Assembly (NCBI RefSeq): GCF_900116145.1
Contig: NZ_FPAB01000009.1
Location: 1-64,000 of the forward strand
Direction: 5' to 3'
Length of the DNA: 64,000 nucleotides
From: Streptomyces harbinensis
GTDB lineage: Bacteria; Actinomycetota; Actinomycetes; Streptomycetales; Streptomycetaceae
Made by a program: the position numbers and the translations under genes. Each line of letters opens with the position of its first letter. The stretch's first letter is position 1. The notes below the pieces were generated by a model, which had not been told where the DNA came from, ran no database searches, and worked only from the letters and a program-made list of their open reading frames with translations. Positions 27,030-29,243 of the stretch are shown here, one piece after another.

Positions 27030-27395
27030 GGCTCGCTCCTCTCCCTCTGCTGCTGCTCCGGGCGGCTGAGGGCCGCCAACCTGCCCCTTCGGGTAGCCCG
27101 TGCGCCGGTGCCCGAAACGTTCCGGCAGCGGCGCCGGGTGCACACACCGTTGACCTGCGGTTTCGCCCGACCGGACCGTCCGGCGCGGCACCGCGTCCGG
27201 CGCGCCGTGGGCGTGGAGGGGCGCGTTTTCCGTACGGCGTCCCGTCGTCCCGGCGTCCCGCTCCCGGTGGATCGGCTTCTCCGGAGACCGCCGGAGGTCG
27301 GGCCGCCGGAAATCGGGGTGCCAAGGCGCGGATAGATCCACCGGACCGGTCGCGTCTGAGTCATGACAGCACAACGACATGCCCTTGGAGGGTTC
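27030..27395. other. Upstream region of the secreted/sigma operon, no gene seen
   Basis: This 366-base region separates a minus-strand gene from the plus-strand secreted-protein operon. It should hold the operon's promoter. A GGAAAT word at about 27308 could be an ECF-type -35, but no convincing -10 partner is evident. No protein-like frame is present. Confidence 0.35.
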
Positions 27396-27941
27396 ATGAC
27401 CGTACAGTCCACGCTCAGGCGCACCCTGCTCACCGGTGCCGCCACGGCCGCGGCCCTGGTGGTGCTCCTCCCGCAGACGGCGCAGGCCGGCGGGATGGAT
27501 GTGATCGAGGTCCAGCCCTATGAGCGGGTCGAGATCAACGATCAGTGGGTGATGGGTCTGCTGCCCGAGGGCAACCAGAACTACGTCGTCTCCTCCCCCG
27601 CGTCCTTCGACGCGCACATCGAGGCCGCCAAGAACTACCCGGGCAGCGACATCCTTCCGGACAGCATCAGCGCCGGCGTGTACGGGGAGGACGGCGAGAT
27701 CCTCCTGCTGGAGGGCTCCTGGCGGCTGGCCGACGGGGTGCCGTTCATCCAGGTCACGCCCGAGGGGCAGGACTGGGGCTACGGGGCGCAGCCGGTGGTG
27801 CTGGAGGACGAGGAGGGCTGGGGCACGTACTACTTCGACCCGGCCGTGTGGCAGATCGAGGGCGTCGACACGTACACGATCACCGCTTCGGACGCCGACG
27901 GTGAAGTGTTCGACGAGATCGAGGTCTCCCTCGGCTTCTGA
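27396..27941 (+). CDS. Secreted protein, paralogue of the anti-sigma outer domain
   Basis: The ATG at 27396 follows GGAGGG. Residues 1-31 are a Sec signal peptide (TLRRTLLTGAATAAALVVLL, cleavage expected after AQA). The mature 150 residues match the outer domain of the membrane protein two genes downstream along their whole length: QPYERVEIND/EPYERVVISD, LLPEGNQNYVVSSP/LLPEGRQNFLLSSP, DSISAG/DSVSAG, GSWRL/GAWRL, GWGTYYFD/GWGVYYLD and SDADGEVF/YDADGEVF. It lies 20 bases before an ECF sigma gene in the same operon. It has no known domain. It is probably a soluble partner, competitor or ligand-binding partner of that sensor domain. Confidence 0.8.
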   Translation: MTVQSTLRRTLLTGAATAAALVVLLPQTAQAGGMDVIEVQPYERVEINDQWVMGLLPEGNQNYVVSSPASFDAHIEAAKNYPGSDILPDSISAGVYGEDGEILLLEGSWRLADGVPFIQVTPEGQDWGYGAQPVVLEDEEGWGTYYFDPAVWQIEGVDTYTITASDADGEVFDEIEVSLGF

Positions 27942-27961
27942 CCGGTAGCAGGCACCCCCAC

Positions 27962-28531
27962 ATGACTCGTGCACCCGAAGCCCACGACGCCGACTTCCGG
28001 GCCTTCGCCACCGGACGGTGGCCGCGGCTGCTGCGGACGGCGTATCTGCTGACCGGCCATCACCACGACGCGGAGGATCTGGTTCAGGTGGCATTGGTGA
28101 AGGCGTACGCGCGGTGGCACCGCGTGGCGCAGGCCAGTGATCCGGACGCCTATGTGTGGCGGATTCTGATCAACGCGCACCGGGACCGGATCCGCGGGCT
28201 GCGGGTGTTCGAGTGGCTGACGGTCCGGTTCCCGGAGCGGTCGGAGCGGGACCGGACCGAGCAGGTGCTGGACCGCGAGGTGCTGGCGCGCGCGTTGCAG
28301 CGGCTGCCGCCGCGGCAGCGCGCCGCCGTGGTGCTGCGCTATATAGAGGACCGCACCGAGACGGAGGTCGCGGCGCTGCTCGCGGTCCGGATCGGCACGG
28401 TGCGCAGCCGGGCGGCGCGCGGCCTGGAGAAGCTGCGCGCCGACCCGGCGGTCCGGGAGCTGCGTGCCCCGGCCGGAGAACAGGAGGTGACGGACCGTGC
28501 CGGAGCGGCACAGCGAAGCGGAGTTCGCTGA
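27962..28531 (+). CDS. ECF RNA polymerase sigma factor (SigE-family type)
   Basis: This 189-residue protein has sigma region 2, FRAFATGRWPRLLRTAYLLT with GHHHDAEDLVQVALVKAYAR (about 11-57), and region 4, ALQRLPPRQRAAVVLRYIED with RTETEVAALLAVRIGTVRSR (about 115-160). It belongs to the short SigE-family/sigma-70 ECF group common in Streptomyces. Its 3' end overlaps the following membrane protein gene by 35 bases, so the two are translationally linked in the way sigma and anti-sigma genes usually are. The upstream gene encodes a secreted protein of the same family as the anti-sigma's outer domain. Confidence 0.92.
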   Translation: MTRAPEAHDADFRAFATGRWPRLLRTAYLLTGHHHDAEDLVQVALVKAYARWHRVAQASDPDAYVWRILINAHRDRIRGLRVFEWLTVRFPERSERDRTEQVLDREVLARALQRLPPRQRAAVVLRYIEDRTETEVAALLAVRIGTVRSRAARGLEKLRADPAVRELRAPAGEQEVTDRAGAAQRSGVR

Positions 28532-29243
28532 GAAACTGCGCCGGGCCGCGGAGGTGGAGGCCGGGGCGGGGGCGGCGGAGCCTGGGCCGGTACCGGTGGA
28601 CGACCTGATCCGCCGGGGCCGTGCGCTGCGGTTCCGGCGGCGGGCGGCGGTGGTGGGCAGCGCGGGCGCCGTGGGTGTGCTGGCGGTGGTCCTGGCCGCC
28701 GGTCCCCTGTGGTGGCCGGGCGGCGGGGCGCCGGGGGACGAGCGGGTGCCGCCCGCGGCCACGGGCGGGGCGTCGCCGGCGCCGTCCGCGCGGGACGGTG
28801 CCGGTGGCCCGCCGGTGGAGGTGGAGCCGTACGAGCGGGTCGTCATCAGCGACACGCTCGTGCTGGCCCTGCTGCCCGAGGGGAGGCAGAACTTCCTGCT
28901 CTCGTCTCCCGAACACTTCGAGGAGAACCTGGAGATCGCCGCTGGCCTGGAGGGCGACAACATTCGCCCGGACAGCGTCAGTGCCGGCTACGACTTCGAC
29001 ACCGATCCGCTGGTGTACGGCGCCTGGCGGCTGGAGGGGACGCCGTCACGGATCGTGGTGGTACCGGAGGACGGTGACGAGGAGTACCCGGCGACGCTGG
29101 TGATGCTCACCGGGGAGCCGGGCTGGGGGGTCTACTACCTGGACGCCGCCTCGATCCCCTCGCTCGCGGGCGGCTTCCGGGTCGTCGCCTACGACGCGGA
29201 CGGTGAGGTCTTCGCCGACTTGCCGGTGGCCATGCCCTGGTGA
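28497..29243 (+). CDS. Membrane anti-sigma-like protein with outer sensor domain
   Basis: The GTG at 28497 follows AGGAGGTGACGG, inside the end of the sigma gene. The 248-residue product has a short charged cytoplasmic segment (1-46: RHSEAEFAEKLRRAAEVEAG and VDDLIRRGRALRFRRR), one transmembrane helix (about 50-72), a Pro/Ala linker (73-105) and an outer domain (106-248). The outer domain is a paralogue of the secreted protein encoded at 27396. There is no zinc-binding HxxxCxxC of the ZAS class, so sigma binding would rest on the short N-terminal helix. Position and topology indicate an anti-sigma factor. Confidence 0.82.
   Translation: MPERHSEAEFAEKLRRAAEVEAGAGAAEPGPVPVDDLIRRGRALRFRRRAAVVGSAGAVGVLAVVLAAGPLWWPGGGAPGDERVPPAATGGASPAPSARDGAGGPPVEVEPYERVVISDTLVLALLPEGRQNFLLSSPEHFEENLEIAAGLEGDNIRPDSVSAGYDFDTDPLVYGAWRLEGTPSRIVVVPEDGDEEYPATLVMLTGEPGWGVYYLDAASIPSLAGGFRVVAYDADGEVFADLPVAMPW

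Follow-up and report, generated by a model that had tools for sequence, protein, structure and literature searches.

Clostridial sigma-I factors are autoregulated and are paired with RsgI, an anti-sigma factor carrying an extracellular module that senses carbohydrates or biomass (PMC6056542). In Streptomyces, the HbpS-SenS-SenR system combines a secreted protein with a membrane sensor kinase and a cytoplasmic response regulator (PMC4991794). The sigE-cseABC operon encodes an extracytoplasmic lipoprotein, CseA, whose loss raises signalling; its sigma factor, sigma-E, has no anti-sigma factor and does not use the operon's own promoter (PMC6767563). Finally, some sigma factors carry fused membrane extensions; among them, ECF52 (SCO4117) is a single protein in which a sigma factor is fused to a zinc finger, a transmembrane (TM) helix, and a carbohydrate-binding domain (PMC8999054). 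Autoregulation of sigma/anti-sigma pairs, secreted accessory proteins, a lipoprotein in a sigma operon, and fused sigma-TM-sensor proteins are therefore all known.

Here we describe an operon of Streptomyces harbinensis in which an ECF sigma factor and its presumed membrane-bound anti-sigma factor are preceded by a secreted copy of the sensor domain. The window (i.e. the whole stretch of 64,000 nucleotides that was analysed) covers positions 1 to 64,000 of the forward strand of contig NZ_FPAB01000009.1, from assembly GCF_900116145.1. The operon lies at 27396-29243 on the plus strand and encodes, in order, the secreted protein (SEC), the ECF sigma factor (SIG), and the membrane sensor and presumed anti-sigma factor (MEM). 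This gene arrangement is well supported, as is the coupled evolution of its two sensor-type domains.

The operon and its putative promoter

SEC (27396..27941, 181 aa) begins with a hydrophobic N-terminal signal sequence that terminates in AQA, followed by a variable linker and one sensor-type beta domain (27501..27932, identified by iterative profile match and alignment). The start at 27396 is correct, as the putative -10 box stops at 27360 and the ATG is directly preceded by GGAGGG, which resembles an RBS. SIG (27962..28531, 189 aa) follows after a gap of about 20 bp and belongs to the SigE family, scoring 179.1 bits against TIGR02983 (cut-off 141.55) and matching Pfam Sigma70_r2 and r4_2; it has sigma regions 2 and 4 and no region 3. 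MEM (28497..29243) starts with a GTG that overlaps the end of SIG. It has the layout of an anti-sigma factor encoded beside its sigma gene: the N-terminal segment is cytoplasmic, and a single TM helix and a disordered linker connect it to an outer domain (28812..29234).

The outer domain of MEM is a paralogue of SEC by BLASTP, profile, and alignment (107 bits, E 1e-33, 42 per cent identity over 168 aa). A search of the 5.8 Mb genome with SEC matched only SEC itself and this outer domain. The earlier note, written from the sequence before any search, had described a paralogue of the sensor domain that is secreted and encoded in the same operon as the sigma factor. Both parts of that description were borne out, and every motif it listed recurred in our comparison of the two domains.

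Pfam scans of SEC and MEM matched no family, including any class I or zinc-binding anti-sigma domain in MEM above cut-off. Among 72 relatives of the outer domain, 71 had no Pfam match at E<=0.01 and one had a weak match to a DUF. In the AlphaFold model of MEM (me5f17855c9aa), helices at residues 7-26 and 34-68 make up the cytoplasmic and TM parts, and a beta domain at 107-244 follows a low-confidence linker (about 69-91). The short helical cytoplasmic segment carries a conserved motif, P-V-P...GR..RRR. SEC is likewise predicted to be beta-rich (mean pLDDT 86.9, with residues 40-178 mostly >90). Foldseek searches against the PDB and viral models returned weak matches to Ig/FN3-like beta-sandwiches, none at E<=0.001, and the domain sequence had no significant match in the PDB (best E 0.044).

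The layout resembles that of sigma-I/RsgI (PMC6056542), with a sigma factor beside a membrane protein that has a cytoplasmic segment, a TM helix, and an extracellular sensor module, in an operon that is autoregulated (putatively so here). Unlike sigma-I/RsgI, the operon starts with a stand-alone secreted sensor domain, and we detected neither a known ligand module nor a Pfam anti-sigma domain. Like CseA, SEC is a predicted extracytoplasmic protein encoded in a sigma-factor operon, but CseA is a lipoprotein and SEC is a paralogue of the sensor domain that lacks the lipobox cysteine of CseA-type modulators; indeed SEC contains no cysteine and so is not a lipoprotein. The operon shares with HbpS-SenS-SenR a secreted protein, a membrane sensor, and a cytoplasmic regulator, although a sigma factor takes the place of the response regulator and MEM, which lacks a kinase domain, that of the membrane histidine kinase. 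HbpS is known as a secreted partner of its sensor and is not known to be a copy of the sensor domain.

Upstream of SEC, at 27330..27360 on the plus strand, lies a putative ECF-type promoter with two boxes, GGATAG-N17-CGTCTGAG, in a region that aligns between loci. It occurs once in the window and in none of 100 shuffles of the window. The shorter form ATAG-N17-CGTCTGAG was found exactly once per genome in 10 genomes of the same clade, each time before SEC, and had no match in three further genomes, whose copies have diverged; these genome-wide searches used exact motifs, which weaker SIG targets could escape. Allowing one mismatch in three genomes added a few matches, several of them common to the genomes, and a backward control pattern also matched. 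One genome (G156) has a second copy, GATAG-N17-CGTCTGA, between SEC and SIG. The -10 box has an ECF-like CGTC, similar to the one in sigma-E sites of S. coelicolor (PMC6767563). A second clade of operons has its own motif, TGTCATCC-N16..19-GTTnnnAGG, which stood before SEC in seven of the eight matches found. Loci of this clade (e.g. L045, L051, L105) also carry a near-invariant block, GGAGAGGCGCC, directly 3' of the putative -10 box and upstream of the SEC start codon, possibly a regulatory or transcript-start element.

SIG probably drives its own operon from this site at 27330-27360. Since SEC comes first behind the site, and the genome search revealed no second strong copy of it, SEC may be the main product of SIG.

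A secreted protein under such a promoter could simply be an exported effector, for example one bound to the wall or surface, with MEM monitoring the same surface target and SEC leaving the sensor unmodulated. Autoregulated clostridial sigma-I, with the extracellular module of its anti-sigma factor sensing biomass (PMC6056542), offers a parallel. SEC nevertheless consists of a signal sequence, a variable linker, and one domain, in which we found no enzyme, repeat, or anchor, and the repeated homogenisation with MEM described below implies more than common ancestry. We consider this explanation unlikely.

Recurrence of the operon and homogenisation of the two domains

We searched for the domain with MEM as query and then with a 72-row profile. 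It was present in 62 of 292 Streptomyces genomes and in none of the 113 other genera in a class-wide sample; all named matches in a second collection were likewise from Streptomyces. The earlier note had set the presence of the same three-gene order in other genomes as a test beforehand, and 36 of the sampled Streptomyces genomes, counting that of the window, proved to carry the complete order SEC, SIG, MEM on one strand, at 38 loci in total. A single genome (G162) carries three copies of the operon (L062, L063, L105), of which two are strongly homogenised. A plasmid search gave no match. The operon is kept as a unit, because within the window's clade none of the genes around it is common to the relatives compared. 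At one locus (L041 6270-6655, G174) the MEM outer domain is split between two reading frames, probably through a frameshift or an error in sequencing. Some loci of the second clade (L049, L051-L053, L059, L064, L068, L070, L104) have a conserved divergent neighbour, a SigE-family sigma gene that lies within about 1-1.5 kb of the operon.

A tree of 111 domains does not separate SEC from MEM as two clades, and the two domains of one locus are often neighbours. Amino acid identity between them reaches 95 per cent in L105, 92 per cent in L045, and 90 per cent in L062. In L105, all 76 of the compared fourfold sites are identical between SEC and MEM (76/76), and a tract of 460 bp is 97.8 per cent identical while the upstream parts differ. 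Monophyly of SEC was rejected (p-AU 9.6e-7) for 14 loci chosen after the large tree was seen. The DNA of these 14 loci can be aligned at the SEC promoter, RBS, and signal peptide, which indicates that the SEC gene is orthologous and that the domain alone has been exchanged with MEM. The tree and the AU test reject a single ancient duplication without later exchange; that each SEC arose by a separate re-duplication of MEM is less likely, given that the promoters and signal peptides of SEC can be aligned between loci.

Own pairs of SEC and MEM also matched beyond within-clade shuffles when L105, L045, and L062 were left out (0/2000), a result to which sub-clade structure contributes. The copies in close relatives drift apart again, so homogenisation is episodic. 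Both domains evolve much faster than SIG, as expected for the recognition of a changing partner; low dS in some pairs partly reflects codon bias, and dN/dS was used only relative to the sigma factor.

The earlier note had suggested that the soluble copy might share the ligand of the sensor, form mixed dimers with it, or serve as an exported signal. The repeated homogenisation favours a shared ligand or direct pairing of SEC and MEM over an unrelated exported reporter. Under direct pairing, SEC would be a signal or co-receptor that binds the outer domain of MEM itself, giving either a self-recognising autoinduction loop or a brake that acts through mixed dimers. Homogenisation would equally keep the two halves of such a homotypic contact matched; the matching of own pairs, the fast evolution of both domains, and the position of SEC first behind an autoregulatory motif all fit, and HbpS-SenS-SenR is a precedent for a secreted protein that works with a Streptomyces sensor (PMC4991794). 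On the other hand, the within-locus matches occur all over the domain, with no single patch seen when we looked for one, and the fused loci described below have a sensor without a SEC partner. We rate direct binding as somewhat unlikely; it is the main rival of the reading given below, and the plain exported effector is the second.

Neighbouring repeats convert by recombination anyway, and the domain might have been copied next door with no function in the pairing. Some SEC genes that stand alone do look relaxed (see below). Such neutral duplication is hard to reconcile with distant loci that keep the open frame of SEC, its signal peptide, its promoter motif, and the gene order, or with an operon kept as a unit whose flanking genes in the window are not common to relatives. 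We regard it as very improbable.

Sigma-sensor fusions and orphan SEC genes

At 21 other loci, one stop-free ORF runs from a sigma-like part through the cytoplasmic segment of MEM and the TM helix to the sensor domain (L058 3726-4928 on the plus strand; L055, L060, L061, L071, L109-L117, L119-L121, L123, L125, L131, and L132). These relatives resemble ECF52 (PMC8999054) in that a single chain holds the sigma part, a TM helix, and an extracellular domain; they differ in that Pfam detected neither a zinc finger nor a carbohydrate-binding domain in the outer-domain family, and in the window the genes are separate and accompanied by SEC. The fusions tie sigma factor and sensor together functionally and strengthen the description of MEM as anti-sigma-like in the earlier note; we infer that MEM acts as the anti-sigma factor of SIG. 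The sigma part of the fusions scores lower and may be altered, as if degenerate or specialised. Most fused loci adjoin a divergent full-length SigE-family sigma gene. None of the 21 has a SEC gene, so sensing can work without SEC.

Conversely, seven loci carry an orphan SEC without sigma factor and MEM (an eighth orphan match, L129, is a partial domain). Two of these (L043, L044) retain the exact promoter motif, and a close orthologue of the sigma factor was not found in either genome. These two and L069 have dN/dS of 0.33-0.66 against the nearest SEC, and their persistence without sigma factor or MEM suits the plain exported effector considered above. Two other orphans, L118 and L126, have a dN/dS of about 1.0 between them and so show relaxed evolution, in line with neutral duplication. 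SEC can thus persist after the switch is lost, and the orphan loci hint either at decay, with SEC left as a relic, or at a separate function. Second, orphan copies of SEC in two genomes (L035 in G037, L037 in G156) have an upstream palindrome, TATACAC-CC-GTGTATA, in place of an ECF-type promoter.

A soluble copy of the receptor as candidate feedback

The reading we prefer, with a probability of roughly 0.4, is a self-amplifying ECF switch that also produces its receptor in a soluble version, with SEC acting as a decoy or scavenger on the ligand of MEM. At rest, the short cytoplasmic helices of MEM would hold SIG at the membrane. Contact of the outer domain with a ligand outside the cell would free SIG to transcribe its own operon from 27330-27360, with secreted SEC as the main product. 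Having the same ligand-binding domain, SEC would soak up or mask the ligand outside the cell; this would both protect the cell and switch the sensor off again, as in feedback by an inducible soluble receptor.

This reading draws on the recurrence of the operon, the tight spacing of its genes in the window, the fusions, the conserved segment of MEM, the promoter motif before SEC, the homogenisation, and the fast evolution of both domains. Against it stand a predicted fold without a close solved relative, the fused loci without SEC, and the orphan SEC loci. A ligand common to SEC and MEM is suggested by their shared domain, and the direction of the effect on the sensor, that of a decoy, is likewise our inference from sequence.

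In the literature we searched, which covered few subscription papers, there was no precedent for a sigma factor whose own operon is headed by a secreted sensor-domain paralogue that repeated homogenisation keeps matched to the sensor. The earlier note knew of no described ECF system built this way, and our search, with subscription journals mostly outside its reach, found none either.

The usual picture of an ECF system has three parts: a sensor, a sigma factor, and a regulon distinct from both. In this case the operon itself seems to be the regulon, and what it exports is a copy of the ligand domain of its sensor. We tentatively propose a bacterial inducible soluble-receptor system, in which the sigma factor mainly targets its own operon, the main product is a secreted copy of the receptor domain, and gene conversion would repeatedly restore the match between two fast-evolving copies, as in recognition or an arms race. 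Because homogenisation recurs and both domains evolve fast, the question of a shared ligand is directly testable by swaps between species with the operon in common. In the homotypic version, the secreted copy would be a strain-specific extracellular signal. If SEC does feed back on the sensor, a sigma switch would have given rise to a compact bacterial receptor with its soluble decoy, or to self-recognition.
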